Positions 1,061 through 62,600 of a stretch of 64,000 bases of DNA are shown here, piece after piece (positions within the stretch are counted from its first letter, which is position 1; each line of letters opens with the position of its first letter). A model generated the notes under the pieces. That model had not been told where the DNA came from and made no database searches. It worked only from the letters and a program-made list of their open reading frames with translations. The position numbers and the translations under genes were made by a program. The stretch is from Kappaphycus alvarezii. Its lineage: Eukaryota > Rhodophyta > Florideophyceae > Gigartinales > Solieriaceae. The DNA lies in contig NADL03000094.1 in NCBI GenBank assembly GCA_002205965.3, positions 62,001 to 126,000 of the forward strand, read 5' to 3'.

Positions 1061-1072
1061 AGTTAATTTATG

Positions 1073-6072: not shown

Positions 6073-6090
6073 TGGTAGCATCGCAACGAG
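6073..6090 (+). other. Primer-binding site, initiator tRNA-Met type
   Basis: TGGTAGCATCGC follows the LTR with no spacer. Its complement is a tRNA 3' end GCGATGCT-A-CCA, which gives a U72 able to pair with A1, the hallmark of eukaryotic initiator tRNA-Met. The chromovirus at 49798 carries the same 12 bases. Confidence 0.75.
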
Positions 6091-6164
6091 TTTAACTTTT
6101 CCAAAACAATCAGACCCTTCCAAAACTAGTTTCCATTATTGCCACTACCCCTTGAATCATCCAA

Positions 6165-7454: not shown

Positions 7455-7540
7455 CAGGTGGATTCTTTGCAGAAGCATACCATGCTCCACATTTTCAATG
7501 CAACATCCTGTCTGTTGGGGTACTTACGAAGTTTCTCAAT

Positions 7541-10459
7541 GTGTTGTTCACGATGGATCCGCCGGCGCGCGAAGATGTCAGCTCCTGTGTCATTTCATTG
7601 CGCAAATCTACCGCTCCCACCAAAATTGTTGAGATTGATGATGATGGTCTTTACCGTCTTCCAATACCACCTGACGAAGAAAATCAAGTCCAAAATCCGC
7701 AATCTGCTCAAGTCTTTCACATGGAGACGACATCCGTGGATCAAGTGTGCTTCCAATGCTTAAACTCAGTCCGCACAAAAACCCAGCGGGAATTGGCTTT
7801 GGAATGGCACAGTCGTACTGGTCATCCTCATCCTGGCAGGTATATGAGACTGTCGAACACATTCGAAGATGTCCCAAAGTTCCCGAAACGGTTGTTGGAA
7901 GATATTCTTTGTATTCCCTGTGCAATTGCAAAAGTTCAACGTCGACCGATTTTGCCAAGCATGCGAAGGACATTGTACCCTCTTGAGATCGTTCATGTTG
8001 ACATCAGTGGAAAAATGCCCCAGCCATCCTTGGGAAGTAGTCATTACTCCGTTGGTTTCGTCGACGATCGCACCGCCAAGACTGATGTGTACTTCATCAA
8101 GAAGAAGTCTGATTTATTTCCTGCTCTGACGTACTACAAGGAAAGATCTGAAAACGTCACTGGCTTCAAGGTAATCAACATTCGTTTAGACGGAGCGGGA
8201 GAGAACCTTTCTGGCACGGTTCAGAACTTCGCCCTGAGCAACGGAATCCGTCTTGAAGCAAGCCCACCTAACGCTCCCCAAAGCAACGGTGTCGCCGAGA
8301 GATTCATGAAGGAGTTAGGCGCACGTGCACGCGTCCTACTATTCGATGCAAAGTTAGGTGACCAACTTTGGGCTGAAGCAATGAGTCACGGGAATTGGCT
8401 GCGAAACCGTCTTCCTTCCGAGCGAATTAATGGAAATATTCCCATACTTCTATGGGACTCTAGAACTCGCATTGACTTCAAGAACTTGCCGATTTTTGGA
8501 CAGCCTGGTTTTGCCTTCTTATATCAATCTCCAACCCGGCAGAACAGAAAGCTCTCCGCAAGAGCTGCACATGGAAACTTTGTGGGTTTGGAAAGCGAGC
8601 AGACGCTGTATCGCATTTACATTCCAGAGAGGAAGAGCATCATTGTGACCAGAGCGCAGGATTTTCGCTTTTGCTCAGAAGACCAGTTGCCGGGAGTATC
8701 TTCACTCCTCGATGGAATCTCAAGGCAGAATACATTGCAGCACGAAGAAGGATTCAACGATGGACTGCTAGAGGATCTCCTTGCAAGAGCGTTTTCCATT
8801 TATCGCATACCACTAAGGAAATGTCTTCCTTGGGCAACGGCCTCAAGAAAGAGAAATCCGGACTCTCGTCTTCCAACTTCTTTCGCCCTTGCCATCCTGG
8901 ACCCCCTCTGGTGCGAAGCTATCGACAGAGAATATAAAGCTCTCCGAACGAGAGGGACTTGGGAATATGTCCTTCGCGATTCCTCGATGCACGTCATACC
9001 GTACACATGGGTATTTCGGCTCAAACCCTGTGACACATCTGGAAAAACTCATCTTCATCGCGCGCGTTGTGTGGCTAGAGGAGATATGCAAATGCCTGGT
9101 ATTGACTTTGATCCTGATTCTCTCTATTCCCCTGTCGCTTCCAAAGAAGCCATCCGAATGCTTTTTGCTATTTCCGCTGCTTTAGGCCTCATCGTTGAAG
9201 GAGGGGATGTAAGTAGCGCGTATCTGTATGGAAAGATCGACGCTATCGTCTACATGGAGCAGCCCACAGACTCCTCTGGAAAACAAGAAAGGCCTGGTTT
9301 TGTTTGCCGTCTACTCAAGTCCATGTATGGCCTACGTCAAGCTGGAAGAATTTGGGGATCACTCTTTGCAGTAACCATTCTCAAATGGGGCTTTAAGCAA
9401 TCTCTTATTGACGTTCGGGTATTCTACAAGCTATGTGGAAAGGAGTTCATTATTCTTGTTGTCATAGTTGACGATATGGCCTTCGTCAGCAATTCAAAGC
9501 CGTTGCTCGAGCATTTTAAGGAAAGGCTATGCAAGGAATTCGATGTAAAGCTTTTCGGGGAGCTGAAGTCGTTTTTGGGCTGGGAGATACATCAAGGAAT
9601 CGAAGGAACCAAGGTTTGCCAGAAGAGGTACATCGATGAGCTTCTCGAAAGGCACGGCCTCTACGAGGCAAACGGTGCTTGGACCCCCCTGCCAGAAGAA
9701 GCGGATATTACTTCTGCACATGAAAACGACACTATGCTTTCCAAAAGAGATCATTCTATCTACCGTGCAACAATTGGAGAGTTGCTACACCTGGCAGTAT
9801 GTACAAGACCTGACATCTCATATGCAGTCAACGCATTAGCACGTCAAGTTCACAGTCCAACTGTCCGACACGCTTCTTTAGTCAAGAGATTGCTACGCTA
9901 TATATCTGGTACAAGACAATTGGGCATTTTGTTTCCAAGAAGAACCAAGAATCTCGCTACAGCTGCAAATGGCTTCAACATTCGTGCCTTCGTGGATTCG
10001 GACTGGGCTGGAGACCAAGAATGCCGAAAGTCCACGACGGGATTCATCATCACGATTAATGATGCGTCAGTAGCTTGGAAGAGCCAACGTCAAACAATCG
10101 TTGCTCTATCTTCTGCTGAAGCCGAGTATGTGGCACTTTCATCATGCGTAAAGGAGTTAACGTGGGTGCGAAGACTGGCATTAGAAATGAGCTACGCCCG
10201 GCCATATTTTGACGAGATGCCAAATCTTACCACACCAGTTTATTCTGACAACACGGCAGCAGTTTCCATCGCTGAGAAAGACCAAGTGTCTGCTAAGAGC
10301 AAACACATCGACGTCAAGTACCATCACGTGCGCGATCACATCAAGTCTGGAGCTGCAAAGATAGTTCACATTAGCAGTGCCGATCAGCCTGCAGACATCT
10401 TGACTAAGTCTGTTGACCGTCGCACGCTAGAGAAGCATCGCAAAAATTTGCTGTGTTAG
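7541..10459 (+). CDS. pol: Copia Pol: GAG-pre-integrase, integrase, reverse transcriptase, RNase H
   Basis: The 972-codon frame is uninterrupted. The same frame stays open upstream to about 7364, encoding the rest of the protease, so 7541 is only the first start-like codon. Domains in order: GAG-pre-integrase with an HHCC zinc site (WHSRTGHPH...CIPCAIAK); integrase core with D154, D217 and E253, that is D-X62-D-X35-E (VDISG, RLDGAGEN, NGVAERFMKE); copia reverse transcriptase (YTWVFRLKPC, GGDVSSAYLYG, MYGLRQAGRIWG); catalytic VDD at 643-645, where YVDD is usual; RNase H (FVDSDWAGD, ALSSAEAEY) ending in DQPADILTKS. All catalytic residues seen are present. The frame ends in TAG. Confidence 0.92.
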   Translation: MLFTMDPPAREDVSSCVISLRKSTAPTKIVEIDDDGLYRLPIPPDEENQVQNPQSAQVFHMETTSVDQVCFQCLNSVRTKTQRELALEWHSRTGHPHPGRYMRLSNTFEDVPKFPKRLLEDILCIPCAIAKVQRRPILPSMRRTLYPLEIVHVDISGKMPQPSLGSSHYSVGFVDDRTAKTDVYFIKKKSDLFPALTYYKERSENVTGFKVINIRLDGAGENLSGTVQNFALSNGIRLEASPPNAPQSNGVAERFMKELGARARVLLFDAKLGDQLWAEAMSHGNWLRNRLPSERINGNIPILLWDSRTRIDFKNLPIFGQPGFAFLYQSPTRQNRKLSARAAHGNFVGLESEQTLYRIYIPERKSIIVTRAQDFRFCSEDQLPGVSSLLDGISRQNTLQHEEGFNDGLLEDLLARAFSIYRIPLRKCLPWATASRKRNPDSRLPTSFALAILDPLWCEAIDREYKALRTRGTWEYVLRDSSMHVIPYTWVFRLKPCDTSGKTHLHRARCVARGDMQMPGIDFDPDSLYSPVASKEAIRMLFAISAALGLIVEGGDVSSAYLYGKIDAIVYMEQPTDSSGKQERPGFVCRLLKSMYGLRQAGRIWGSLFAVTILKWGFKQSLIDVRVFYKLCGKEFIILVVIVDDMAFVSNSKPLLEHFKERLCKEFDVKLFGELKSFLGWEIHQGIEGTKVCQKRYIDELLERHGLYEANGAWTPLPEEADITSAHENDTMLSKRDHSIYRATIGELLHLAVCTRPDISYAVNALARQVHSPTVRHASLVKRLLRYISGTRQLGILFPRRTKNLATAANGFNIRAFVDSDWAGDQECRKSTTGFIITINDASVAWKSQRQTIVALSSAEAEYVALSSCVKELTWVRRLALEMSYARPYFDEMPNLTTPVYSDNTAAVSIAEKDQVSAKSKHIDVKYHHVRDHIKSGAAKIVHISSADQPADILTKSVDRRTLEKHRKNLLC

Positions 10460-11021
10460 AAGTTCGAAGTGATACACTCAACGAAAGTGCCTTTGGAATT
10501 TGGATTTGCTGCAAAAGAAGAGCAAAAGGTAACGTCTAACTTTTATGGCTAGGCCTTTTGCCTCTTTGGCTGCGGTACCTTCAGTGACGGGGAATTACAC
10601 TTTCGTGGACAACACCTCTTCCTCCCCACACCCGTTTCCGGGTGTGGTTTGGCCCTCAATTCGCTACAGCGGTCAGTCACTTCAGGGTTCACTGCGAACA
10701 GTTCACGTTAGTGCAAATTTTGCGGGACCCTTTTATACCAGACCCTCTGAAACCCTCCAGATTTAATTGGAATTCATGATTATGGTTACACGTGGCCTAT
10801 CTTGGGATATTCAATTTGAATGGCAAATATTTGAAGAACTTGTGGCCTAGTTGGTTTGGGAGTGTTTCTGAAATAGATTTAAGTGAGTTCAATTCCAGTG
10901 TGTGCACTGTGATCAACTTTATTTTTGAGTTTTCATCATCTCAGATAGGCGGGTGTGTCAACGATGAGGTTGCTGTGAGTATTGCTTCTTGCACTTATTG
11001 AGAGGTGCTTTGTTGGGCTAG
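10460..11021 (+). other. Copia 3' internal non-coding region
   Basis: About 560 bp separate the pol stop from the polypurine tract, long for a copia element. It contains a short hairpin-like TTTCCGGGTGTGG / CCACACCCG pair near 10626-10650 and open frames under 75 codons with no recognised domain. It may hold packaging or 3' UTR signals. Confidence 0.5.
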
Positions 11022-11034
11022 CGGCGAGGAGGGG
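11022..11034 (+). other. Polypurine tract of the copia element
   Basis: CGGCGAGGAGGGG abuts the 3' LTR start TGATAG, the position expected for plus-strand priming. Confidence 0.8.
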
Positions 11035-11277
11035 TGATAGAGACCACTTGTGTGCGCCGCTAGCTGTACTGAAATGTGCCCACAGAGGGGCAAAGCCGGG
11101 TCCGGCTGGAGGGACCAGTAATTACATTAGCCCTAGTGTCAGCATGACATGGGATGCATTCCCTGAGGGCTACCGACCCGCCGTCGGGTGAGCTCGGGGA
11201 GCATATAAAATAAAGGGAGTGGCGTCCTCGCCACCGGAGTCCTGGGGAGGCAAGGCTCCGACCCTTTCTCATCTTTA
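11035..11277 (+). repeat. 3' LTR of the copia element
   Basis: Matches the 5' LTR over its whole length with one extra C. It is followed by the right target-site duplicate ATCTG at 11278-11282. Confidence 0.93.
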
Positions 11278-27679: not shown

Positions 27680-28560
27680 GATATAAAACCGCTTCTTTCC
27701 GCAAATTCCTTTTTTCTTCCTTGATAGATCCATTCTTGACCTATGATTCTGTAATCCAGTCATACTTCTTTTAATTTCGTAAAGAGGAATCCTACAGTCT
27801 GTTTCCGTTACAAATTCAAAGTCACTGTACGATTCTATTTTATATGTATGTTTGAAGAAATAGAACTCCTTTTTAGAAAAGAAACCTCTCCAAACGTGAT
27901 CCTTTCCTTTTTCCAAACTCAGTTCCGGCATTTTATATAACAGATTTTTTCTGGTTCGCTCGGAATGGATACAAATACAAAACCGCAATATCTGGTTGCA
28001 TTTTTTATCTCAAACAAGGCCACGAGAATTGCCGGGAAGTTATCTTACTGAAAGAGCGATAGCAGTGTTGTTGAAACAAAATCCTTGCCATGAATCACTC
28101 CATGGGCTCCCTCATAAACTATATTACTTTTTTATCAACGCAACTATACTCTTCTCGTCCTTTAACATCGAGAAATCAACCAAACACAGTCGTATTATCA
28201 ACTACCTTGCTTCGATGGACAACGAGCTTGCTGAACTAAGAGGGTCAACGCAGAAGAATAGACTGGGAAAGCTCTCTGGGGTGGTGTTCACTGTCAAATT
28301 TTGGAGGAATTAGAGGAAATGGAGGAGCTGGAGGAGGCTAAGGCGAATGTAGGGGGATCCGTAGATAAGGAGGTCTGAATGGACTCGTGAGACCTACTGA
28401 GTTACATTCATGTGGAGGTTTCTGTAGAGGACGGAAGGGAAACTGAGGAGGTGAAAGTAATCATGGAATGCTCTGTTGGGATGTAGCGGAGGTAGAAAAT
28501 GTTGAAGAGGTATTTGAGGACCTTAATATGTACAAGAAGGCTATCTTTCATTAAATGTTT
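27680..28560. repeat. Unclassified two-gene repeat, diverged copy E
   Basis: The left part resembles the left flank of copies A and B (CGCAAATTCCTTTTTTCTTC, then GACCTATGATTCT; compare 34500 and 45720). The minus strand encodes LLYKMPELSLEKGKDHVWRGFFSKK near 27880-27950, the counterpart of the small left-hand gene. The plus strand encodes an acidic segment (LEELEEMEELEEAKANVGG, about 28303-28360) with stops, the counterpart of the acidic gene. I cannot see the right tail. Confidence 0.4.
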
Positions 28561-34430: not shown

Positions 34431-34641
34431 CCATGAAGAGGGAAAATAGTACTAAACAATGTATTTTTATAAAAACGGTCCTCTCTGTAAGAAAGAGGTC
34501 TTCTCCACAAACTTTTTTCTTCTCCATCCCTGACCTCTGCGTTTCCAAAACAACTCTTCCCACCTATTTTCTTCTAAGAACAAATTCATGAAACAAATTC
34601 CCCTACGAATCCACATTCACTGTACAACTCAATTTTACGCA

Positions 34642-34839
34642 TTATCTCTGAGTATTATGGTACTCGTTTTTCAAAAATAAATCTTCCGACTCGTGGTCCG
34701 CTTCTTCCTCCGAATCAACTTCCGATATTTTATCAAGCAGTTTTTTTACTGCTCTGATAGTTTGCAAGTCAAAGCTGCAGAATTGCCTTACACTTTTCAT
34801 TTCGTCCAATGTCGTGAAAGATCTCAAAGACATTGGCAT
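34642..34839 (-). CDS. Small conserved protein of the two-gene repeat (copy A)
   Basis: A 65-residue frame starting MPMSLRSFTTL. Its second half (AVKKLLDKISEVDSEEEADHESEDLF) is conserved in copy B (45.84-46.05 kb: NNLLGKIPELNLKNEGDYDSKDFF) and copy E (27.9 kb: NLLYKMPELSLEKGKDHVWRGFF). The shared core is LL-x-K-[IM]-[PS]-E-[LV] followed by an acidic stretch. This is the only copy read without a frame break. I recognise no domain; there is no signal peptide or membrane segment. Confidence 0.45.
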   Translation of the reverse strand: MPMSLRSFTTLDEMKSVRQFCSFDLQTIRAVKKLLDKISEVDSEEEADHESEDLFLKNEYHNTQR

Positions 34840-34920
34840 AATTAAAGTTCGACATCAACGTCGTTGAAGCAAACCCCCGCCGTCGACCACCTCATGGGCT
34901 CACGCCCCTTTTAAATCAAC
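34840..34920. promoter_or_regulatory. Divergent promoter with TCAACG-T-CGTTGA palindrome (copy A)
   Basis: The 81 bp between the two start codons contain a 13-bp palindrome TCAACGTCGTTGA (34855-34867) close to an ATTAAAG box. The palindrome is identical in copy B (46063-46075), and a variant (TCGACGTCGTTGA on the minus strand, with TATTTAAA beside it) is in copy C at 47425-47437. Its conservation across copies suggests a binding site serving both genes. Confidence 0.45.
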
Positions 34921-35365
34921 ATGACCAATCTCCGCCCGTCCCTCACTATCGCCAAGTCTTCCAGAGCCCGCTGCCCCCTCAACGACCTGGCCTTGATGGC
35001 AATGGACCAACTGACTGTGACCACTATTGTAGAAGAATGGACTGGGAACGCGTTCGGAGTGGGTCTGCCGGCACTTCTTCGGGGAGGCAGAGGAGGTAGA
35101 GGAAGAGGAGGTAGAAGCGGAAGATGCTGAAGATGAAGTAGAAGGATCGGAAGGTGAGTAGGACTAAGTGGACCCGTGATAGCCACTAGTGTACAATGGT
35201 GGGGGAGCTGCTGTGGATGACGGAGGAGAGATGGAGTAATCAATATTTTATGACACTTTTTGCGCGAATTAAGAGTATTTTGAAGGAATTCATTGGGAAT
35301 ATGGATATTTAGGAGGAATTGCTTGCCTCTGCTCTCGAGGACAAATATTTTAAGGATAAAAGATA
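34921..35365 (+). pseudogene. Acidic protein of the two-gene repeat (copy A), broken
   Basis: Starts MTNLRPSLTIAKSSRA, like copies B and C (MTSLRQSL..., MTNLRPSL...). The shared block PT-x(2)-[YC]-D-x-Y-x-RRM appears in a second frame (DCDHYCRRMDWE), and the acidic region follows in further frames. The C-terminal block SILKEFIGNMDI*EELLASALEDKYF matches RMDILEEFFGSDPENGKLEDQI of the 59.3 kb copy. One internal stop and at least two frame changes. Confidence 0.4.
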
Positions 35366-35799
35366 GATATTTATCCTGAAAGTACCTGCTTTTAGTCTTG
35401 CTCGTTCACACCATTTCATTTGATGTATTTGGTGGTACTTAGTATGTTTGTTTGGGACTTTTGGTTTAGCCGGAACGTCTGTATCAGCTGAGCGAACTGG
35501 TTCCTGTTGTGGAATTCAAGCAAGTTTGCAGAAAACTTCAAGTCAAGTCCCAGTAGTTAGGAAGTTGAGCGTCAGCTTCAGACCCAGGAACAGTTTTTAT
35601 TACGCTGGTCACAGAGCAAAACTATGAGACCCTGCCCTTTCTTTAATCTATTTTAGCCCTCTTACCTGTCGTCCTTACCAACCTATTTCTGTTCGATCAA
35701 CTATACGACGGTAGCACTTTTGTCGCTTACAACACCTCCTTCTTGGAGTAATTGGTTCTGAGCATCTCTTATTCTGACGATTTATCCCTATCAAAAGGC

Positions 35800-36130
35800 C
35801 CTCGTTCCCTCCTACAAGCAACGCCCCTCACTCCTGATATGTCCCTTGCCTGCCTGACTATGTCTTCCCGCATTCTTTCGCAGCATTTACCTATATGTAG
35901 GTATCTTGCTGCGCTACCTTTACTACCTCAACTGAGTCGAACTATACATGCAGCGGCAATTATTCGCAACCTATCTTCGCTCGAGAGAACTTTCAATACC
36001 ACCCACTTACCGAGCCTGTGAGCCATCCTCCAAATTCCTGATCTCACCAGTATGCTGCAAAAAAAAGCTTCAAAGTTCCTATCCAAGCTAGGCCAACACC
36101 CAGGCAGGCAAATGAAAACAGAAGACGCCA
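35800..36130 (+). other. Possible LINE C-terminal fragment
   Basis: A frame reads SSRILSQHLPICRYLAALPLLPQLSRTIHAAAIIRNLSSLERTF. This has the composition of the region after the RT domain in LINEs, and it lies on the far side of copy A from the LINE RT relic. The assignment rests on position and composition only. Confidence 0.25.
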
Positions 36131-39599: not shown

Positions 39600-41510
39600 T
39601 GACACATCTACGGAAGACGTCAGACTTCGGTCACCGCAGACTGGTCCATTCAGGAACAGACAAAGCGCGTCAGCTTGAAACTCGTCAACATCAAGCCAGG
39701 AGAAGCATCTGAAGGTGGCCTCGCAACGTCCAATGAAATGGAGACAACTGCTGCTGAGGTCGAGCTACCGAATCGTCAACCTTCTGTTGAAGAACCTCGA
39801 GAAGAAGCCAATGGGATGGCCGGAGTAGGAGGGGTATGCAAAGAAGTGCATGGAAAAATTTGGACCAATCAGGAGGTAGTATTACCGTTGAATGGATCAA
39901 CGGCATATCGGCCATGGAAGGTAATTGGTCCAGCAGGGAACACGTACATACAAGGTCATACCGAGTATGAGAAGACCCGTATGATTTTTTCCTTTGCATG
40001 TTTCCCTATCGAACACCTTTCCACAATTACCGAACTTACAAACCGGAAACTCGCTAATGGTGGGCACATGCGTACGACAGCTGGTGAAATTCTAAAGTTT
40101 TTTGGAATTCTCATATTGCTATGCAGATTCGAGTTTACAAGCAGAAGGTCACTTTGGAGTACACAGTCTACATCCAAATACATTCCATTGGCGGCTTTTG
40201 GAAAAATCATTTCGAGGAACCGTTTCGAAGCACTGGTTTCATGTATTACATTCAGCCGCTACACTGAAACTGAAAGCACTGACAGAAGATGGTCTTTGGT
40301 CAGCGGATTCGTGGAGGCCATAAAACGGCATAGGAGGTCAAGTTTTTCGCCATCGGAGAGAATTTGCGTGGATGAAAGCATGTCACGCTGGTACGGAATG
40401 GGGGGGATTGGATGTCAGAAGGACTACCGCACTATGTCGCCATGGACCGTAAGCCTGAAAACGGATGTGAGATCAAGACTGCGTGCTGTGGTGTCAGTGG
40501 CATTGTATTGAGTTTGGAGATTGTTTTGTCAGCATCTGACTGCAGTAATCGGCGTTACGAGTCAAATTTCCCTCATGGTACTGCTGTTGTTCTTCGCCTT
40601 ACAGAGCCTTGGTTTCATTCGAATCGACTTGTCTGTGCAGACTCTGCATTTGCTTCCGTGGCCACAGCAAATGCGCTTTTTGAATATGGACTGAGGTTTA
40701 CAGGTGTCGTCAAGAATGCGACAAGGCAGTTTCCTATGTCATTTTTGTCAGGGCTGGAACTTTTCAGGCGCGGAGATCATATCTGTATGGTAAGTCCGAG
40801 GGCGGAAAGCCACCCTTCTATGATGGCCGATCTGTGATGTGGAAGAGACAGAAGATACTTTGTCAGCACTCCGGTACAACACTTCCGTCAGAGCCTATCA
40901 GAAGGTCTCGTTGGAGATCTGCTGGTAATGAAACGCTACTTGTGGAAATGGAAATTCCAGTTCCAGCGGTTGTCAGCACATATTATCAAACGTGCTCCCA
41001 GATTGACAGGCATAACAGATGCAGACAGATGATCTTGGATTGGAGAAGAAATTCGAAGTCAATGATTGGTCGTTGAGGGTTAATACATCTTTGCTTGCAA
41101 TTTGCATCGTTGACTCATGGCTGCTATACAAGGGTTTGATGGGTGCAAGAAATTGCATGTCTCAAAAAGATTTTTATGCAAAACTTGCAGAGCAACTCAT
41201 TGACAATTCATTTGATGCTATTGGCCTCCGCAGATCTGACATTGACGTTCCAGAGGATTCTGTTCCCTCATTGGCCTGCGGTACTGGAATCCACCTGGTG
41301 CCCACAGTGAAAAGGCGCAAAGGAGCCAATGGGGCCCCAACGAAAGCGGCGTTTCAAAGCAGATGCAAAATTTGCAAATCTGACAAGAAGTCCAAATTTC
41401 TCTGCTCTGAGTGCCTGAAACTGAACAAAGAGGTTTGGATATGCCATTCAGAGACAGGACGTAACTGCTTTCAAAATCACTTACGCGATGTCCACTTCTG
41501 TCATAATTAG
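39600..41510 (+). CDS. piggyBac transposase, split over four frames
   Basis: The protein is spread over frames 0 (to about 40395), 2 (to about 40785), 1 (to about 41030) and 0 again (to the TAG ending at 41510). DDE_Tnp_1_7 blocks are intact: first Asp in ICVDESMSRW (40371), second in VCADSAFASVATANAL (40640), and QIDRHNR (41005) as the third. The C-terminus has the cysteine-rich domain of the family (CKICKSDKKSKFLCSECL...CHSETGRNCF). Every frame step is -1. The first falls in a run of seven G; an eighth would restore the frame. No internal stop is found apart from those caused by the shifts, so the gene was recently functional or is intact in the organism. The N-terminal start is uncertain: 39675 is a TTG, and the same frame is open somewhat upstream. 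Confidence 0.8.
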
Positions 41511-45654: not shown

Positions 45655-46440
45655 TTAAACATTTTTTAATGTCTTGCAAAAAACGGTCCTGCCTGTAAAA
45701 AGCGCCCCCTTCACAAACTTTTGTCTTCTTCATACCTGACCTCTGATTTTTCAAAACAACTATTCCCATGTATATTTTTAAGAACAAAACCTTGAAACGA
45801 CTTTCCCCTGCGAATCCAAATTAACTATACAAGCCCATTTTCCATTTGATCTTTGAGCATTTTGTTGCATATTTTTTCAAAAAAGTCTTTCGAATCGTAA
45901 TCTCCTTCGTTCTTCAAATTCAGTTCCGGTATTTTACCAAGCAGGTTATTTATTATTGTCATGGTTGAGTGCAACTTTAAAGCTGCGAAATAGCCGCGCA
46001 TCTTTTATTTTGCCCAGTGCAGTTAAACTATTCGGAGACATCGTCATGTTTAAAGCTCGACATCAACGTCGTTGAAACGAAACCCCTTACATCAACAATC
46101 CCATCTGCTCACTCCCTTTTGCCCTCACCATGACCAGCCTCCGCCAGTCCTTGACCACCTCCAAGGATTCCAGAGTCTACTTCCCTCTCAACACTTTGGC
46201 CTTGATGGCCAATGGACCAACTGAATATGATGATTACTATAGAAGAATGGACCAGGAATGAATTCAGGAGTGACTCCCCGGGTACTGCTTCGAGGAGGTA
46301 GAGGAGGCAGAGGAGAAGGTAGAGGAAGAGTAGGCAGACGAGCAGGTAGAAGAGGAGGAAGCTGATGATGACGTGGAAATATAGGAAGGTGCGGAGGACT
46401 AGTTATACCGGAGGAAGCTACTAGTGTACAACGATGAGGA
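45655..46440. repeat. Unclassified two-gene repeat, copy B (body)
   Basis: The left flank starts ACGGTCCTGCCTGTAAAAAG like copy A. The small minus-strand gene (46047-45840) begins MTMSPNSLTALGKIKDARLF and continues in another frame as NNLLGKIPELNLKNEGDYDS. The palindrome TCAACGTCGTTGA is at 46063-46075. The plus-strand acidic gene starts at 46130 (MTSLRQSLTTSKDS...LALMANGPTEYDDYYRRMDQE) and has stops. The body ends at 46440, where a tail in the opposite orientation begins. Confidence 0.55.
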
Positions 46441-46795
46441 AGCTACTCTGTGGTATAGTTGAACGAGCAAGAAGGATTATATATAAAAGAGAGTTGAGAG
46501 GGCTACAAGCAAGTATGAAAGGGGCAGGGTCTACCACTGATGCTATGGAGCAGCGTAGGAAAAAGGGTTCTTGGGTCTGAAGTTGACTCTCAACTCTCTA
46601 CTGCTCAGGACTTGGTTTGAAGTTGTCTGCCAACTTGGTTGACCTCCACAAGAGGAAGCAGTTTACTCAGCTTACATAGACTTTTGGGTACCACTAAAGT
46701 CTCAAACAAACATACTAATAACCATAAAATACATTCAAGGGAATCGTGTGAACCAGAGAGACTACTAGAAGATATTTCCTCAAGGTAAATATCTA
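46440..46795 (-). repeat. Right-hand tail of the two-gene repeat, inverted copy
   Basis: Read on the minus strand it matches the tails at 35.4, 60.05 and 62.3 kb: AAAAGTCTATGTAAGCTGAG, then GAGAGTTGAGAGTCAACTTC (self-complementary core GTTGA-GAG-TCAAC), then GACCCTGCCCCTTTCATACT. It directly abuts copy B body in the opposite orientation. Confidence 0.65.
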
Positions 46796-46859
46796 GGTGC
46801 CATACCTATGCCAGCCACCCATCGGCCAGGGGTGGGAATTAATGTGACCATTAAATAGC

Positions 46860-47470
46860 CCTCCAAAAGAGCACCAAATGATAAGGGTAAATTGTCGGGA
46901 GAATAGATACTCAGAACCAACTACCCCAAGAAGGAGGTGTTGCAAGCGAAAAAAAGTGCTACCATGGTATAGTTGAACGAGCAAGAAGGAGTGTATATGG
47001 AAGAGAGTTGAGAGGGCTACAAGCAAGTATGAAAGGGGCAGAGTCTACCACTGGTGCTCTGTGAGCAGCGTAGGAAAAAGGTTTCTTGGTCCGAAGTTGA
47101 CTCTCAACTTCCTAACTAGGGACTTGACTTGAAGTTGTCTGACAACTTGCTTGAACTCCACAGGAGGAAGCAGTTTATTCGGCCTATATAGACTTTTTGG
47201 GTATCCCTAAAGTCTCAAGAAAACATACTAAAAACCATAAAATGCATCAAATGGAATCGTGTGAACGAGAAAGAATAACAGCAGATACTATCAGGATAAA
47301 TATCTAGATTATTTCCTTCATATCTTAGATGACTTGGTGATGGTGAGGGAAGGACGGAGGTTGGTCATGTTAAGGGCTAAAAGAAGGGGTGAGCTGATGA
47401 GGTAGTTGATGGCGGGGGGTTGCCTCAACGACGTCGACTTCGAAGTTTAAATACTGGGACGTCTTCGAAA
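46860..47470 (-). repeat. Unclassified two-gene repeat, copy C (inverted, internally deleted)
   Basis: On the minus strand: a TATTTAAA box, the palindrome variant TCGACGTCGTTGA (47437-47425), the start MTNLRPSLTITKSS (ATG near 47370), then a direct jump to the tail (47320 to about 46860). The whole acidic coding part is missing. A deletion of this type can generate non-coding derivatives of the unit. Confidence 0.55.
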
Positions 47471-47699
47471 AGTATGTCGACCTTGGACGTGTACAGTAAT
47501 GACATCTATTAATGACACTGTGTCTTAAAATAAAAAATCAAATCATGAATTTTCCACACTCATCCAAATTAAAAATATCTTGCAAATTCAGGAACTGTAA
47601 AAAATATCTTGCAAATCCCGATACTGTATCCAAATTTGGTCCTCCTCTAGATTTTTTTCGTGTGCAAATTTTGCGCAGATCAATAGTTTGGAGCAAAAA

Positions 47700-49440: not shown

Positions 49441-49796
49441 TTAAACAATCTAGTGTTTACTAGAATGTTATGGACGCCTCTTGAGATATGCCAGCAATGC
49501 TATTTAGCGTGGCATTTTTATTTTGCGTGTAGAATTTTATTATGCATTGCTGTAATGCATCTAGACGTTTCGGATTAGTGTTCTAGAGTATTTTAGAGCA
49601 CATTAGACGCGTCCAGTTAGTTTATTTGTAATGTGTGTTTTTACACCCATTGAGGGGGGTACAAAGCACTATATAAGAGGTCGTAGATGCCGAGTAGCGG
49701 CAGGAACAACCAACAAACATTTTTCAACATCGATCAAAGTCAACATCTGAGTTTATTTCAACTGTCTTCCTTTGCCCCAACTACTCTTTCGTTTCA
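49441..49796 (+). repeat. 5' LTR of the chromovirus
   Basis: Matches 54956-55309 with two changes at the outer end and a short indel near GGAACAACCAACAAAC. TATA box CTATATAAG at 49669-49677, about 120 bp before the LTR end. Confidence 0.93.
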
Positions 49797-49797
49797 C

Positions 49798-49811
49798 TGG
49801 TAGCATCGCCC
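49798..49811 (+). other. Chromovirus primer-binding site (initiator tRNA-Met type)
   Basis: TGGTAGCATCGCCC starts one base after the LTR end (TTTCA-C-TGG). The first 12 bases equal those of the copia PBS at 6073. Confidence 0.75.
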
Positions 49812-50399
49812 AGTTGGCCGAAGGAGATCAGTTAGTACCACGACTGTGGGCTGGAGTGCCAGTCGTTGGTAAGCACCACCTGTGGGCTGGAGTGCCAGGT
49901 GCGTGCAAGTAGTCCAGTTCTGCAGGGAGAACTAGATAGGCTGCTAGGTATCTTCGATATCTTCGCCTACTTTGATTTTGGTTATTCTGCGCCGAGTCGC
50001 CTACGTATTCTCAAATAATCCTCTCGACTATTGGCTGTTAGCTAGGTCGACCGACTGGGACAAGGATTCGAGTAACGCGCTCTAGGTTTGATCAGGTAGG
50101 AGCAACCTCATTTGGGTAGTGGGGAAAGAACTTAGGTTCTGTGATTGAGAAGTATCTTTTGGTCGGCTCGAGATCTTTTCTTATAGGGTAAGGACACCGA
50201 AGGGTCTTTAACAAAAGACTGGTGGGGATATCCCGAACAGATATAGATCACCGTAACTCCCGGGTGTGGGTTACGAAGAGTTTGTATCACTCTCTTGCGG
50301 GAAGAGGACCCGTCGCCAAGGGACGGCTCCCTAAAGTATCAAGTGGATAATAAGTCAAGAGAGAAAAATTGAATAGAAGAAGAAAAAAGGTTGTGAAAA
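49812..50399 (+). other. Chromovirus leader
   Basis: A 588-bp untranslated leader with a short internal repeat (GTGGGCTGGAGTGCCAG at 49846-49862 and again near 49873-49890). It probably carries packaging signals. No reading frame of note. Confidence 0.5.
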
Positions 50400-51200
50400 A
50401 TGTCGTTCTTGAAGCCGAATAAGCCAGAGCAGTTCAAGGGCACTCGGGATAGGCTCGTCGTGGAAACCTGGTTGTACCAGCTCGAACAGTACCTTACGCT
50501 CGTTCAGATGCAAAATATGGATCTAGCACTGAACGATAGAGCTAGGATTATGTATGCTACAACCTTGTTTACGGGCACAGCTGCAAGTTGGTGGTTCATG
50601 AAAGTTGCCTCCAATGCAGTTCCAGATTCTTTTGATGAGTTTAAGAATTTGGTAAGGGCTGAGTTTATACCCGCTGATAGTGTTCGACGTGCAAGAGACA
50701 AGCTGAGGAGTTTGCATCAGAAGTACTCTGTTGCAGCTTATCTCTCAGAGTTTAGAAACGTGGCTCTGAGCATCCCTGGTATCTCAATGGATGAAATGCT
50801 AGATAAGTTTATCTCCGGACTCAAGCCACAGGTTAGGCTAGAAGTCCTCAAGAATAATGTTACAAACGTGGAAGAAGCTGCCCGAATCGCTCTGAATGTT
50901 GACAGTGCTTTACGTGGATCTGGAATGTTCTCTAGGTTTGGTGAACAGTCGAGTTATGTTCCAAGCCAGGCTCCCGTTCCTATGGAGATCGGTAACGTGG
51001 AGAAGAGGTACAACAGTGGTCAAAATCGAATCAGGAATCGTCGATTTGACAAAGATAAAGAAAGGTTGTACAGAGAGAACCGCTGCTTTGTATGTCACAA
51101 AGTAGGTTGCAGGCCATGGAAACATAATGACCATAAGGAAAGTAAGATTGCATCGAATAATGCTCAAGTTATTGACAGTGGTCTAGAGTCGGAAAACTAA
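50400..51200 (+). CDS. gag: Chromovirus Gag
   Basis: A 266-codon uninterrupted frame. Residues 1-190 are a retrotransposon Gag core (FKGTRDRLVVETWLYQLEQYL...AASWWFMKVA...VRRARDKLRSLHQKYSVAAYLSEFRNVAL). A basic segment (RIRNRRFDKDKERLYRE) precedes a cysteine motif CFVCHKVGCRPWKHNDH (about residues 231-247). The spacing C-X2-C-X4-C-X4-H differs from the usual CCHC knuckle. The stop TAA at 51198 is followed at once by the protease region in the -1 frame. Confidence 0.9.
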   Translation: MSFLKPNKPEQFKGTRDRLVVETWLYQLEQYLTLVQMQNMDLALNDRARIMYATTLFTGTAASWWFMKVASNAVPDSFDEFKNLVRAEFIPADSVRRARDKLRSLHQKYSVAAYLSEFRNVALSIPGISMDEMLDKFISGLKPQVRLEVLKNNVTNVEEAARIALNVDSALRGSGMFSRFGEQSSYVPSQAPVPMEIGNVEKRYNSGQNRIRNRRFDKDKERLYRENRCFVCHKVGCRPWKHNDHKESKIASNNAQVIDSGLESEN

Positions 51201-51532
51201 GAGGTCCGCCGAAAGGAAAAAGCGCTCCGGTTGGACCAAGTATGAGTGACTTTAATCGTCTTGTTGCAGAGGTAAAACAACTAAGACAAAGTATACAGAG
51301 TCCAGTGTTGAAAGAAGAGATTTGCACTGGTGATAGCTCTGAAGTTGAGAAAAGTCAAAGAGATCATGCGATAGAAGGTTTGAAGACTAGTTTGGAGTCC
51401 AATACTATCGTTAATTGTCATGAAGACGACATCCAGGTCAAAGAGGAAGATATTCCAACCGAGGAATTAATCTTACTTGACGGGACGCTAAATAATGTGA
51501 AAGCGTCTGTCCTCAAAGACGACGGAATGTAA
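51197..51532 (+). CDS. Chromovirus Gag-protease linker and protease N-terminus
   Basis: Frame 2 is open from upstream of the Gag stop (LRGPPKGKSAPVGPS then MSDFNRLVAEVKQ) to 51532. It contains a coiled-coil-like start, an acidic linker (HEDDIQVKEEDIPTEELILLDG) and the beginning of the protease (VKASVLKDDG). The catalytic block completes only in the next frame (CNTNVVSRDFAVRN, about 51527-51570), one base along. Gag to this frame is -1, as expected for recoding. This frame to pol is +1 inside the active site, more likely an inserted base. Confidence 0.7.
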   Translation, partial: LRGPPKGKSAPVGPSMSDFNRLVAEVKQLRQSIQSPVLKEEICTGDSSEVEKSQRDHAIEGLKTSLESNTIVNCHEDDIQVKEEDIPTEELILLDGTLNNVKASVLKDDGM

Positions 51533-51605
51533 TACAAACGTAGTATCTAGGGACTTTGCAGTTCGAAACAAAGAAAAGTTTCGATTTAAGAATGTCAAAG
51601 CCACT

Positions 51606-54600
51606 GTGAATCATTCGAGCAAGAAGTCAAAGGAGAAAACGTCGGAAGTTATCCTGGGAGCTACATTGAAGATTGGTTCCTATCTGTTCACGTCCAATTG
51701 GGTCGTTGCAGATTGTAGATATGATGTGCTTCTAGGAATGCCATGGCATGTTGCCAACAATCCAGATATTGATTATCAGCGCCGGGTTGTGAAGGTTAAC
51801 GATGACGTGCTCCCGATAGTAGAAGATATTCCGATGGAAGTAAGAGTAACAAACATTGGAGTTAAGAAATTCCGGAACATGATTAGGAGAAAGAATCATG
51901 GGAGAGATTTCAATGTTTATCAACTGATCAATGCGAATGAGATTAAGTTGAAAAAGCCCTCTGCAATCAATAGTCAGAAAAATGCTAGTCTGGAAAAGCT
52001 GTTGTCTAAGTTTAAGGATGTCTTCAAAGGGAAACTACCAGCTGGACTACCACCAAAGAGAAGTGTGGATCACGAAATTGAGGTTGAGAAAGGTTCTAAG
52101 CCACCTCATCGTCCATTGTTTCAGTTATCCCCAGCGGAATTGAAAGCTGCAAAAGAATATGTGGAAGATTTGCTGAGAAATAAGAAGATCAGGCCAAGTA
52201 AGTCACCGTATGGGTCACCGTTATTCTTCGTCCAAGAGAAAGACAAATTGAGAGGTGTGGTCGATTATAGAGCACTTAATCGAATCACAAAAAGAAATAA
52301 TGCGCCCTTGCCTAGGTCAGATGAGATGTTTGACAGACTTGGTGACGCAAGAGTCTTCTCAAAGTTGGACTTGAAGACCGGTTTCCATCAGATACGGGTG
52401 AAGCCTGAGGACATTGAAAAGACTGCGTTCAATACGAAGTACGGACAGTTTGAGTATCTTGTAATGCCAATGGGTCTATGCAATGCTCCTGCTACTTTTC
52501 AGTCACTGATGAACCGTATCTTCTATGACTGTATTGATGTCTTCATGGTTGTGTACATCGATGATCTTCTCATATTCAGCATGGACGAAGAAAGCCATCT
52601 CAAGCATCTGGAAATAGTGCTAAGTCGCCTGCAAGAACATGAGCTTTATGTTTCTCCAAAGAAATGTGACTTTCTGAAAACGGAGATTGAGTTCTTGGGC
52701 TTCATAGTCGGTAAAGATGGTCTTCGTGTTAACCCAGAGAAAGTTGAGGTTTTGAAGACATGGCCGAAGCCTAAAACGGTGACAGAGATAAGGAGTTTTA
52801 TTGGCTTACTCCAGTTCTTCCGCAGGTTTATTCCGAAGTTTTCGGAAATAGCGGCTCCGTTGACAGATCTGACGAAGAAAGATATCGGTGTTGGTAAATG
52901 GAATGACAAGTGTGATGTTGCATTCCAGAAGTTGAAAGAAGCCATCACCCAAGCCCCTATTCTTGTTGCCCCGGATTGGAACAAGAGTTTTAGAGGACAT
53001 GTGGATGCCTCACAATTTGCGGTTGGAGGAACTTTAACGCAACTAGATGGAAACGGAAAGGATCGTGTTATTGCATACTATTCCAAAAAGTTGTCTCCTA
53101 CTGAAAGATATTATTCCGCAAATGATAGGGAGCTTCTCGGTTTGATATCTTTTCTTCAAAGGTTCAGATGTTATTTGGAAGGTTCATCATTTGAGATTAT
53201 TACTGACAATCAAGTCCTTAAGCATCTATTCACTAAGCCTAAATTGAGTCGAAAAGAGGCAAGGTATATCGAAACGCTTGGTAACTTTGGAATATTTCCA
53301 ATTACCTTGAAGCAAGGAAAGATTCATGTGCTTGGTGATGCTTTATCAAGAGCTCCTCATGTAATTAGCTCTAAGGATATGGATAACCCTTCCATTAATG
53401 AGGTGGAAGTGTTATCTATTGATCTTGACGATATCCTTAGTAGTTATGATGATGATCAGTTCTTTGGACCTATTGTTAGAGCCTTGGATGGAAATTGGCC
53501 TTCTGATGAGACTAAGAAAGTACAGCTTGAAAAGATAATTCATATGTTTAGGCGAGAGGGAAAACGACTAATGTATGGTAGGAAGCTTTGTATTCCAAGG
53601 AAGAGTGTTTCGGATATATTGCAGTTAGCACACGATTCGAAGATAAGTGGACATTTTGCTTTTGCTAAGACGTTATCGAGACTCTCAAACTATCACTGGA
53701 GACATAAGACACGTGATGTTCGAAACTACGTTCAGGGATGTCTTCGATGTCAGCAAGCAAAAGATTCGAATCAGAAGAAAATGACAGTTCCCACATCTCT
53801 AGAGATGCCTGAGAGAAGATGGGGATCTTTGGCTACTGACTTCATTGTTCACCTTCCAAGGACTAAGAATGGAAAAGATGCAGTTACGACATGGGTTGAT
53901 CGTCTTACAAGAAGAGTTCATTTCATTCCTTGTAATGTGAATGAAACAGCAGTGGACGTCGCTAATTCGTTCTTTAGCAACATCTTCAAGCTCCATGGTT
54001 TACCCGATAATATTGTTTCCGACAGGGACCCGAAGTTTACTTCGAAGTTCTGGGAAAATGTTATGAAGCTTTGCGGAGTTAAGTTGAAGATGTCCACCAG
54101 TCGTCACCCACAGACAGATGGTGCGTCTGAGATTATGAATCGTATGGTTGAGAACTACTTACGATGTTATTGCTCGTATCATCAGAATGATTGGGATGAA
54201 TTGTTACCTGCTGCTGAGTTTGCATACAACTCTTCTGTGACTGAAGACTTGGGAATGTCGCCGTTCGAAATGGACTTGGGATATAATCCAAAGGCACCTC
54301 TTGATATGATTTCAGGAGCAGAGACACCAATTGAAAGCGTTGAAGAATTTAAGGCACGACTGCGAAACTCCTTGGAAGATGCTAAGTTCTCGTACAGAGT
54401 TTCTAAAGCTAGGCAATCTGCAGTCTCTTCTCAACGGTATCAAGCTCCTCAATATCAAGTTGGATCGAAAGTATGGTTAAATAAGTCTCTGTTTACGGAT
54501 TTGTATTCCAGATCGCAGGCAACGCAGAAGCTGACGGCTAGAAGATATGGTCCATTCATGGTGAAGGAGTTAATTGGAAAGAACGCTTTGAGGTTGGATC

Positions 54601-54923
54601 TACCTAATCATCTCAAGATCCATCCTGTTGTTCATGTAATTCACACAACTCCATATAAGGACCAGCCTGCTGATATTGCGCTGCCTATGCCTGAGCGACC
54701 CGATCCAATACCGATGCCTGGAGGAGAAGAACAAGTCGTTGACCGAATATTGAAGCATAGGAAGAGAGGAAGAGGATATCAATTCCTCACTCTAATGAAA
54801 GGAGCGCCAACTCATGAAGCTGAGTGGCAGCCGAAAAGAGATTTTGTGGACCGAGACGGTACGGTTACGGAAGTTTGGCACAAGTATATCGTGGAAAATG
54901 GCATACTTCCAGAATATCATTGA
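51606..54923 (+). CDS. pol: Chromovirus Pol: protease, RT, RNase H, integrase, chromodomain
   Basis: An unbroken 1105-codon frame, also open about 80 bp upstream to CNTNVVSRDF, so 51606 (a GTG) is not the biological start. Protease C-half: YDVLLGMPWH. RT: VDYRALNRITKRNNAPLP, ARVFSKLDLKTGFHQIRV, MPMGLCNAPATFQSLMN, catalytic YIDD at residues 317-320. RNase H: VDASQFAVGGTLTQ (Asp 467). Integrase: zinc site H676, H683, C712, C715; catalytic D745, D806, E842, which is D-X60-D-X35-E; GPF motif at 982. Residues 1044-1098 are a chromodomain (VVDRILKHRKRGRGYQFLTL...AEWQP), which in chromoviruses directs integration to marked chromatin. All catalytic residues are present, so the enzyme part should be active. 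Confidence 0.95.
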   Translation: MNHSSKKSKEKTSEVILGATLKIGSYLFTSNWVVADCRYDVLLGMPWHVANNPDIDYQRRVVKVNDDVLPIVEDIPMEVRVTNIGVKKFRNMIRRKNHGRDFNVYQLINANEIKLKKPSAINSQKNASLEKLLSKFKDVFKGKLPAGLPPKRSVDHEIEVEKGSKPPHRPLFQLSPAELKAAKEYVEDLLRNKKIRPSKSPYGSPLFFVQEKDKLRGVVDYRALNRITKRNNAPLPRSDEMFDRLGDARVFSKLDLKTGFHQIRVKPEDIEKTAFNTKYGQFEYLVMPMGLCNAPATFQSLMNRIFYDCIDVFMVVYIDDLLIFSMDEESHLKHLEIVLSRLQEHELYVSPKKCDFLKTEIEFLGFIVGKDGLRVNPEKVEVLKTWPKPKTVTEIRSFIGLLQFFRRFIPKFSEIAAPLTDLTKKDIGVGKWNDKCDVAFQKLKEAITQAPILVAPDWNKSFRGHVDASQFAVGGTLTQLDGNGKDRVIAYYSKKLSPTERYYSANDRELLGLISFLQRFRCYLEGSSFEIITDNQVLKHLFTKPKLSRKEARYIETLGNFGIFPITLKQGKIHVLGDALSRAPHVISSKDMDNPSINEVEVLSIDLDDILSSYDDDQFFGPIVRALDGNWPSDETKKVQLEKIIHMFRREGKRLMYGRKLCIPRKSVSDILQLAHDSKISGHFAFAKTLSRLSNYHWRHKTRDVRNYVQGCLRCQQAKDSNQKKMTVPTSLEMPERRWGSLATDFIVHLPRTKNGKDAVTTWVDRLTRRVHFIPCNVNETAVDVANSFFSNIFKLHGLPDNIVSDRDPKFTSKFWENVMKLCGVKLKMSTSRHPQTDGASEIMNRMVENYLRCYCSYHQNDWDELLPAAEFAYNSSVTEDLGMSPFEMDLGYNPKAPLDMISGAETPIESVEEFKARLRNSLEDAKFSYRVSKARQSAVSSQRYQAPQYQVGSKVWLNKSLFTDLYSRSQATQKLTARRYGPFMVKELIGKNALRLDLPNHLKIHPVVHVIHTTPYKDQPADIALPMPERPDPIPMPGGEEQVVDRILKHRKRGRGYQFLTLMKGAPTHEAEWQPKRDFVDRDGTVTEVWHKYIVENGILPEYH

Positions 54924-54936
54924 CGAGGACGTCAAT

Positions 54937-54950
54937 AGAGAGGAGGTGGG
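54937..54950 (+). other. Chromovirus polypurine tract
   Basis: AGAGAGGAGGTGGG lies five bases before the 3' LTR start. The spacing leaves AATAG between tract and LTR, so priming may start within it. Confidence 0.65.
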
Positions 54951-54955
54951 AATAG

Positions 54956-55309
54956 TGTAACAATCTAGTGTTTACTAGAATGTTATGGACGCCTCTTGAG
55001 ATATGCCAGCAATGCTATTTAGCGTGGCATTTTTATTTTGCGTGTAGAATTTTATTATGCATTGCTGTAATGCATCTAGACGTTTCGGATTAGTGTTCTA
55101 GAGTATTTTAGAGCACATTAGACGCGTCCAGTTAGTTTATTTGTAATGTGTGTTTTTACACCCATTGAGGGGGGTACAAAGCACTATATAAGAGGTCGTA
55201 GATGCCGAGTAGCGGCAGGAAACAACCAAACATTTTTCAACATCGATCAAAGTCAACATCTGAGTTTATTTCAACTGTCTTCCTTTGCCCCAACTACTCT
55301 TTCGTTTCA
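54956..55309 (+). repeat. 3' LTR of the chromovirus
   Basis: Starts TGTAACAATCTAG and ends TTTCGTTTCA, followed by the right TTTTA duplicate. TATA box CTATATAAG at 55183-55191. Confidence 0.93.
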
Positions 55310-59283: not shown

Positions 59284-60047
59284 ATGATTATACTCACCAT
59301 AACTCTTCCCCTACCCATTCAAAACACACTTAATTGCCTACCACTCCTCAAAGTTCACCAAAATGGACACCATATGCCCCTCCAAAGTGGTTTCCAAAAA
59401 TCGCCACCCAGCCCCCTAAACGCCATTCCCTTACTCTCTTTCGGCTCTCTTTCGGCTCTACTGATCGTGATGACTATCTACGCCGACAAACCAAGAAGAA
59501 GCTGATCGAATTCGTGCGTCGCTTTTTCGTCGAGGACGACGCGGAGGAGGTAGGTGAGGGGCAGGAGTGGGAAGTCTAGGAGGGAGCTGGGGAGACTTTT
59601 GAGGAGTGCGCAGCCCCGGAATTGGTCTACGAGAATGAGGTTGACGAGGAAGATGAAGAGGATGAAGAGGATGAAGAGGATGAAGAGGATGAAGAGGAGG
59701 CTGAAGAGGAAGAAGAGGAGGACGAGGGGGAGGGAGACATGGAAAATGTTGGAATAGTAGGGTCGGGGCTGGACAGTATGAACCAAAATGTCCCGAAGCT
59801 GGAACAGGATGGGGGCATCTTTAGTGGTTTAGATATCTCTCAGGAGGAAATAGAGAGTTATGAGCTGTTAGAAGATATTTTTGGGGACTGCTTGGGCAGA
59901 ATGGATATTTTGGAGGAGTTTTTTGGGTCTGATCCAGAGAATGGGAAATTGGAGGACCAGATCGATTGTTCGTTTTACGAGTATCTTTTGCTTAGAGTAT
60001 ATCATCCAAAAATAGTGCTTTTATGCATTTCCTGGTATCTTTTGTAG
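59284..60047 (+). CDS. Acidic protein of the two-gene repeat, copy at 59.3 kb
   Basis: The best-preserved copy of the acidic gene. ATG at 59284 (frame 1), then a -1 step to frame 0, which runs from 59334 to the TAG at 60045-60047 with a single in-frame TAG at 59577. Blocks: RLSFGSTDRDDYLRRQTKKKLIEFVRRFF (shared with 46.2 and 61.7 kb), FEECAAPELVYENE, an EDEEDEE repeat of about 40 residues encoded by GATGAAGAG units (59649-59725), then a C-terminal domain (IFSGLDISQEEIESYELLEDIFG, RMDILEEFFGSDPENGKLEDQI). No signal peptide or membrane segment. Acidic repeats are found in histone-binding and nucleolar proteins, but no function can be assigned. Confidence 0.5.
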
Positions 60048-60400
60048 TTTTGTTCGGACTTTACGGGTAGCCAAAAAGTCTACATAAGCTGAGTAAACTT
60101 CTTCCTATTAGAGAGGTCAAGCAAGGTGACAGACAACTTCAAGTTAAGTCCCGAGTTGTAGAAAGTTGAGAGTCAGCTTCAGACCCAAGAAACATTTTTC
60201 CTACGGTGGTCGCAGAGCATCAGTAATAGACCCTGCCCCTTCTATACTTGCTTGTAGACCTCTCAGCTGTCTTCCTTATGTACTCCTTTTTATTCGTTCA
60301 ACTATACCACGGTAGCACTTTTGTCGCTTGCAACAGCTCCTTCATGGGGTAATTGATTCTGAGTGTCTCTTCTCCCGACGATTTATTCCTATCAATATGC
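60048..60400 (+). repeat. Right-hand tail of the two-gene repeat (59.3 kb copy)
   Basis: Directly follows the acidic gene. Conserved landmarks with the other tails are AAAAAGTCTACATAAGCTGA, AAAGTTGAGAGTCAGCTTCA, AGACCCTGCCCCTTCTATAC, TTCAACTATACCACGGTAGC and CGACGATTTATTCCTATC. Confidence 0.65.
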
Positions 60401-61637: not shown

Positions 61638-62222
61638 ATGCAACGACTCCTCCTTTCGCCCCATTGCCAAAGCCCATCAACCTCGCCCCATCACTGTTTC
61701 TCCTCTATTTACTTCTGGTCCAGTCAACGTCTACGACTACCTCCGTTGGCAAACCAGGAAACGCTTGACAGAGGTAGCTGCTCGCCACCTGGTGGAGATC
61801 GAAGCACAGGAATCGACAGGTGGGGACTCTGGGGAGGAGGATGGTAATGCAGGGTGCTTCGAGCAGTGGGTGGCCCCAGAGATCGTTTACGAGATGGAAC
61901 AAGGGGAGTAAGAGTCCGAGTACGAAGATGAGGCCGGGGAGGAAGGAGAGGAAGACGAGGATTCTGCGGACGAAGAAGGGGACTTCAAAAATGGTAATAT
62001 GGAAGGGGAAGGAATGAACTAGGTGGACCTGATAGTGCCAGCCATGGACTCTGTTGCAACGGACTCAGGCGAGCTGTATTCTTGGCGAGAAGGGCGGACA
62101 ATGATCGGCTATCCGGGGGTATATTTATGGATTACATGGACACTTACGATATCTTAAGGGAAGTGATAGGTTTTGATCTAGAGGGTGAGGATTTTGAGGA
62201 GCAGATTAATTTAGTTATTTGA
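61638..62222 (+). pseudogene. Acidic protein of the two-gene repeat, copy at 61.6 kb
   Basis: ATG at 61638; the main frame is frame 1: SSFRPIAKAHQPRPITVSPL, GPVNVYDYLRWQTRKRLTEVAARHL, FEQWVAPEIVYEMEQGE, then an acidic stretch after a TAA (ESEYEDEAGEEGEEDEDSAD). After a TAG at 62020 the C-terminal block MDTYDILREVIGFDLEGEDF EEQINL (frame 0) ends at 62222. The blocks align with the 59.3 kb copy throughout; the acidic part lacks the perfect EDEEDEE repeat. Two stops and two frame changes. Confidence 0.45.
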
Positions 62223-62269
62223 AGTACTTTCTTAAAAAATCACTGAAGTCTTGTCCTACTTTTTCTGGT

Positions 62270-62600
62270 GCTTCTTCTAGTTATAAAGAGATTTTTGTTG
62301 GGGAAGAAGTCTACATAAGCGAAGTGAAGTGCTTTCTGCATGTGACGGAAAGCAAGCTGGCAGGCAACTTGAGGTCCAGTACCAAATAGTTAGGAAGTTG
62401 AGAGTCAACTTCAGACTCAAATATTTTTTGTTACGCCAGTCGCAGAGTATAGGTTGTAGAGCCTGCCCCTTAAGAGTTCCTTACTAGAGAAGTCGCTCAG
62501 CTTTCACGCTCACTCTTCTGCACCACCCGCTAATGTCTACCGTAGCACTTTAGTTGCTCGCAACGACTCTCACCTCGGGTATTTAGTTGCTTCCTTTTCC
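62270..62600 (+). repeat. Right-hand tail of the two-gene repeat (61.6 kb copy)
   Basis: Landmarks GAAGTCTACATAAGCGAAGT, AGGAAGTTGAGAGTCAACTT, GAGCCTGCCCCTTAAGAG and CCGTAGCACTTTAGTTGCTC match the other tails in order. Confidence 0.65.

Follow-up and report, generated by a model that had tools for sequence, protein, structure and literature searches.

A plus-strand protein gene inside the long terminal repeats of a Ty3/gypsy retrotransposon family of Kappaphycus alvarezii

Long terminal repeats (LTRs) are as a rule regarded as control sequence that codes for no protein, and TG..CA ends bordered by a 5-bp target-site duplication identify an LTR inserted by an integrase of the retroviral type. 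In MMTV, a mouse retrovirus, U3 is described as holding the Sag/Naf frame under a U3 promoter (PMC9412291), and the plant LTR retrotransposons Grande, RIRE2 and Retand are described as carrying additional ORFs in the internal region, which in most cases stand after pol and before the 3' LTR (PMC7264820). Among the titles and abstract openings listed by our literature search for genes inside LTRs, made outside subscription journals and repeat databases, one paper on such a gene was found, that on MMTV.

We analysed a stretch of 64,000 nucleotides of the Kappaphycus alvarezii genome (contig NADL03000094.1, positions 62,001 to 126,000; hereafter the window), in which an initial annotation had noticed an undescribed dispersed repeat with a divergent pair of small genes. 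This reading is corrected here, as the repeat is a decayed LTR. Our best explanation, which we consider likely as a whole, is a Ty3/gypsy LTR that contains a plus-strand gene under selection, placed in U3 by inference from promoter-like sites and assigned a regulatory role as a guess. The family resembles other Ty3/gypsy elements in its TG..CA LTRs, 5-bp duplications, protease-RT-RNase H-integrase order and an RT closest to Ty3 among solved structures, but differs from them in that its LTR holds a conserved protein gene and its pol frame runs past the integrase into a duplicated domain. As described for MMTV sag/naf (PMC9412291), the frame is wholly inside the LTR, with promoter-like sites on either side; the analogy is one of layout only, with no sequence relation found or expected, and the U3 placement is here putative. 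With the plant additional ORFs the family shares an extra conserved protein beside gag-pol, which in those elements is suspected of regulating transposition (PMC7264820), whereas the gene studied here lies inside both LTRs, in sense orientation, rather than where that source places most of the plant ORFs.

The dispersed unit as the LTR of Ty3/gypsy retrotransposons

The copy in the window is an old and broken LTR at 34462..35793 (+), its ends set with probes for the common LTR ends. The unit is repeated across the genome (assembly of 336 Mb, 884 contigs): a search in which 40 of 5260 first-look candidates were scored listed at least 75 matches, of 69-87% identity, besides the window copy and a near-identical twin. 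Since the middle is of variable length, most copies were matched in two blocks, one on its left and one on its right. The window copy has no clear target-site duplication at its ends, no internal region was seen adjoining it, and it lies within duplicated sequence, since its flanks are common to loci L002 and L003. L002 is 99.2% identical across the whole 4.3-kb locus and L003 83% across nearly the whole locus, so that the former is an allelic or recent duplicate and the latter an older segmental duplicate, neither being an independent insertion.

The dispersed nature of the unit and the additional copies in the window, both proposed earlier, are confirmed, with consistent ends at 34462-35793 and relatives at 27.8, 45.7-47.5, 59.4-60.4 and 61.6-62.5 kb. 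These relatives comprise a weak fragment of the LTR 5' half at 27866..28020 (+) (blastn, 70% to L029); the 5' part of another LTR copy at 45679..46423 (+), with a gene remnant containing stops at 46130-46291 (blastn, tblastn); two LTR tail fragments at 46450..46796 (-) and 46879..47328 (-) (blastn, 84% and 85% to L040, respectively); an LTR 5'-half fragment at 47328..47489 (-) (blastn, 83% to L043); a diverged LTR copy at 59400..60394 (+), in which the gene (59400-59957, with one stop) is followed by the tail (tblastn, blastn); and a more diverged copy at 61648..62471 (+), with gene pieces at 61648-61878 and 62118-62201 and a tail piece at 62304-62471 (tblastn, blastn). The acidic plus-strand frame with its 3' tail, reported from this series of loci, is present at 59.4 kb with the blocks DDYLRRQTKK, APELVYENE and MDILEEFFG, and this frame is the source of those blocks. 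In the window copy itself, tblastn with intact frames of other copies found interrupted remnants of the LTR gene at 34921..35376 (+), as pieces in two frames with stops; all the plus-strand LTR-gene frames matched within the window are interrupted or partial.

The copies have sharp ends, TGTTGTTATAAAAACGG... at the left and ...TTTACCCCTATCA at the right. Target-site statistics were taken from 28 of 40 oriented copies, after dropping six allelic or paralogous duplicates and six copies whose ends aligned poorly, with L001 and L003 both kept despite their common flanks. Duplications of 5 bp with at least four of five bases matching were observed in 13 of the 28 (0.52 expected from mismatched pairs), examples being ATTTC (L009), AACTC (L031), ACATC (L040), GAAGA (L043) and AAATC (L004), and were exact in five. 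Mean flank identity at length 5 was 0.62 against 0.27 expected, and no such excess was found at lengths 3, 4, 6, 7 and 8 (0.26-0.32 against 0.24-0.29). The ends and target-site duplications that the initial annotation proposed to define are thus of the TG..CA and 5-bp kind.

Among the copies sampled, a Ty3/gypsy internal region directly adjoins the unit in three, of which two are partial or diverged: at L026, continuing into L049; at a tail-only match of ~430 bp in L051, continuing into L048; and, for the diverged one, in L050. Matches to RVT_1, RT_RNaseH_2 and Integrase_H2C2 were obtained with open pieces of L048. Three old copies with a PBS-like flank were followed downstream, where the internal region was found directly in L026, in opposite orientation and belonging to another copy in L024, and not at all within 6 kb in L014. 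We also noticed in L049 (300-1064, -), downstream of the L026 internal region, another RT of a different kind (RVT_1, E 6e-9), which looks LINE-like by eye and probably belongs to another element.

The only complete element read is a young one in L074, on the reverse strand, reached through the plus-strand frame. It is composed of ATCTG, a first LTR (622-2009), the internal region (2010-8080), a second LTR (8081-9496) and again ATCTG. Its LTRs, of 1388 bp and 1416 bp, are 99.2% identical, with 11 differences in 1385 aligned bases plus gaps, the main one being a 28-bp repeat at the start. The young LTRs begin with a variable number of such repeats (TGTAATACAG..GGTCCTCCC; in L074 at 622 and 8081 of the reverse strand), which are perhaps enhancer-like; they shifted the LTR bounds obtained by blastn alone (603-2009 and 8090-9496; 98.3%). 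The first LTR is followed by TTTGGTATTCTTGTGGAGGGG, with the PBS-like stretch TTTGGTATTC, and the purine tract GAGAAAGGGGGCG stands just before the second LTR; TTTGGTA... comes directly after the LTR in L026, L051 and L074. A primer tRNA was looked for with the PBS-like stretch and none was identified. The Pfam pieces come in the order aspartic protease, RT, RNase H and integrase; for the latter, the core match (rve) is under the Pfam cut-off and the zinc-binding part well above it. Among solved structures, the RT is closest to that of Ty3 (4ol8, PDB search, E 1.2e-47). The gag-pol frames of L074 are split, so that its completeness, which is one of structure, says nothing on activity.

The frame at L074:1954-3675 (-) continues past the integrase with two copies of one ~135-residue domain, which are 32% identical (E 1.6e-22; 76 bits, against 20 for the best of 100 shuffles) and match nothing in Pfam apart from a weak piece of integrase. 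Similar frames were observed at L048:83-490 (-) and 734-1066 (-).

The unit is therefore an LTR, belonging to a family of Ty3/gypsy retrotransposons in this genome, and solo LTRs account for many of the old copies sampled. Among the young kind, L073 is such a solo LTR and has CCATC at both sides. Two other readings were rejected: a terminal-inverted-repeat DNA transposon, since inspection of the aligned ends found no inverted repeat beyond TG..CA, and a free-standing non-autonomous element, since the unit forms both ends of the complete gypsy element in L074. That the unit has neither inverted repeat nor RT was correctly noted, and is explained by its being an LTR, since the parent element has its RT in the internal region. 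The initial annotation offered a new transposon type, a non-autonomous partner of another element or a tandemly spreading gene family; the unit belongs to an element of known kind, so that the first of these does not hold. Homology to a known transposon was found for the element, and none for the plus-strand protein.

The plus-strand gene and its position between putative promoters

The plus-strand frame is wholly inside the LTR and is open in both LTRs of L074, occupying LTR positions 448-954 in the first and 477-983 in the second, stop included (168 codons in each). A genome search with this frame, in which 150 of 9852 candidates were scored, listed at least 154 matches, 57 of which are stop-free over 150 residues or more (by eye), a count that includes tandem and allelic copies (four on contig C782, three on C629) and is thus not one of independent insertions. 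The solo LTR in L073 keeps the frame open. On the same contig as the window and ~17 kb upstream of it, a young LTR gene is stop-free at G000:C94:44441-44905 (-). On C782, at ~16.8-48.4 kb (L072, L073), four LTR genes are spaced regularly at ~10.36 kb; two of the repeats, when compared, are 99.9% identical over 3.1 kb, in a tandem array that carries solo LTRs. An rDNA array was considered and rejected, there being no Rfam match in L072 or L073.

The encoded protein is acidic, with ~30% Asp+Glu in young copies; that of L075 is 168 residues long, with 50 acidic (Asp or Glu) and 14 basic (Lys or Arg) ones. Between L075 and L069, an old frame, identities amount to 14/29 in the first 30 alignment positions, 20/27 in the YDDY..RRMDRERV block, 14/22 in the acidic part, 23/35 in the PWEP...EGVIVISDSSD block and 32/49 in the C-terminal block. 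The VIVISDSSD stretch resembles a SUMO-interacting motif and may be one. No relative of the protein was found among 5.8 billion proteins (E up to 0.001 with the old frame and up to 0.1 with a young one), in Pfam (E up to 1), in PDB (E up to 10) or in IMG/VR, in a search that may omit records of this genome. The gene thus has many intact copies and no relative found, in agreement with the earlier remark that its product matches no known family.

We identified promoter-like stretches on both sides of the gene. Downstream of it, the TATA-like GTCTATATAAGCTGAG is at LTR position 1075 of L074; TATATAAG is found there in three young LTRs, and 12 of 30 old copies have it exactly (the alignment comprises 29 of the 40 copies and one from L044). 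In the window copy this site is mutated (35477..35492, +, aligned to GTCTATATAAGCTGAG of young LTRs). The LTR tail can be aligned as DNA between old and young copies, and the TATA-like stretch in it is well conserved, yet several other parts of the tail are at least equally so. Upstream, TATTTAAA is present in the three young LTRs at LTR 343, ~100 bp before the ATG at 448. If TATATAAG is taken as the promoter of the genomic RNA, the gene falls in U3, upstream of that site, and this is the placement that we infer from the sequence. Were the genomic RNA to begin instead at TATTTAAA, whose distance from the ATG would suit such a start, the gene would be in R-U5 and its frame would code for a leader-encoded protein ahead of gag; we think this unlikely, as those three young LTRs have TATATAAG downstream of the gene, where it is also exact in those 12 old copies, within a tail well conserved as DNA.

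With the gene in U3, the genomic RNA would start from the TATATAAG site at LTR position 1075, and the gene would be read from its own box, TATTTAAA, in full elements and perhaps in solo LTRs. Its product, we guess, may be an accessory nuclear regulator with an acidic middle, which could tune LTR transcription or counter SUMO-dependent silencing. We tentatively propose that an accessory regulatory gene moved into U3, so that each insertion, even a solo LTR, would leave behind a self-contained, promoter-bearing gene; that the protein may act in trans, through a putative SUMO-interacting motif, to affect how the whole family is transcribed or silenced; and that the LTR genes would persist as a dispersed family once the remainder of the element is gone. 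We hold this scheme to be possible rather than probable. If solo LTRs do express the gene, the element would still have a trans-acting factor in the genome when none of its remaining genes is left, and a real gene family would go unseen under repeat masking.

Coding signal on the two strands

The initial annotation placed a second, small gene on the minus strand, which would make the LTR the carrier of a divergent pair. In the window this is a 65-codon frame at 34645..34839 (-), and we consider it very unlikely to be a gene. The window copy, L062 (partial) and L069 have it free of stops, a LLDKIS..EADHESKDF block is recurrent in it, and among changes common to at least four copies codon position 2 is the least variable (21/12/19 at positions 1/2/3). 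However, over the 39 of 50 copies having the region, distances by codon position (0.197/0.177/0.204) have no third-position excess and the frame is interrupted in 36 (by reading). In addition, blastn matches from old to young LTRs start only near old LTR position 460, so that the half holding the minus frame is not shared with the young LTRs. For these reasons we rejected the minus-strand frame as a gene.

On the plus strand, selection was assessed with 14 natural frames, namely 12 young ones, L069 and L052, with L078 and L084 kept though their ends differ or were cut. Differences between L075 and L069 at codon positions 1, 2 and 3 are 0.167, 0.222 and 0.500. Three young copies compared with L069 have dN/dS values of 0.16, 0.18 and 0.16 in the true frame, against 0.75-2.44 in shifted frames, and the value without the acidic stretch is 0.19. 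For all 12 young copies the values are 0.14-0.21 against L069 and 0.22-0.31 against L052. In RT and integrase, L074 compared with L048 gave 0.27, 0.27 and 0.24 (0.46-1.19 in shifted frames), the LTR gene thus appearing at least as constrained as these enzymes of its own family.

Among old copies, changes common to at least four copies number 34/45/62 by codon position, a modest third-position excess, and private changes 157/147/147, with no such excess, a pattern consistent with source elements under selection whose copies decay neutrally once inserted. Taken by themselves, the 12 young frames have 44/43/46 variable sites by codon position and a mean dN/dS of 0.63, and L069 against L052 gave 0.71, values expected if most differences arose after insertion. 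With the even sites and the value of 0.63 among young frames, the case for selection is carried by the between-lineage comparison, chiefly with L069, together with the modest excess in shared changes. As judged from these substitution patterns, the LTR holds one plus-strand protein gene under purifying selection in the lineage that makes new copies. Of the divergent pair and of the undescribed protein genes proposed for the unit, the plus-strand member is thus retained (open frames; dN/dS 0.16-0.18; no homologue) and the minus-strand one is not.

The frame might be kept by host use, the copies being domesticated host genes that the element also carries, and many copies are indeed stop-free, at least one of them in a solo LTR (L073); we find this highly improbable, since the stop-free copies are mostly young and the dN/dS within them is what recent insertions would be expected to have. 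That the frame is no gene at all, and is held open by chance through acidic repeats and compositional bias, is the least credible reading: its middle is low in complexity with GAG/GAA-rich repeats and most old copies are broken, but the codon-position differences between L075 and L069, the low dN/dS outside the acidic part with values near or above 0.75 in shifted frames, and the 57 long, stop-free frames among the 154 listed matches all oppose it.

Other elements in the window

Besides copies of the LTR described here, we identified in the window a Copia-type element at 5830-11277 (+), with gag and RVT_2 frames between 99.6% identical repeats (5830-6072 and 11034-11277), and a different gypsy element at 49444-55309 (+), with gag and RT/integrase frames between 98.9% identical repeats (49444-49796 and 54959-55309). 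A PiggyBac-type transposase piece (DDE_Tnp_1_7, E 7.7e-20) is located at 39675-40511 (+).
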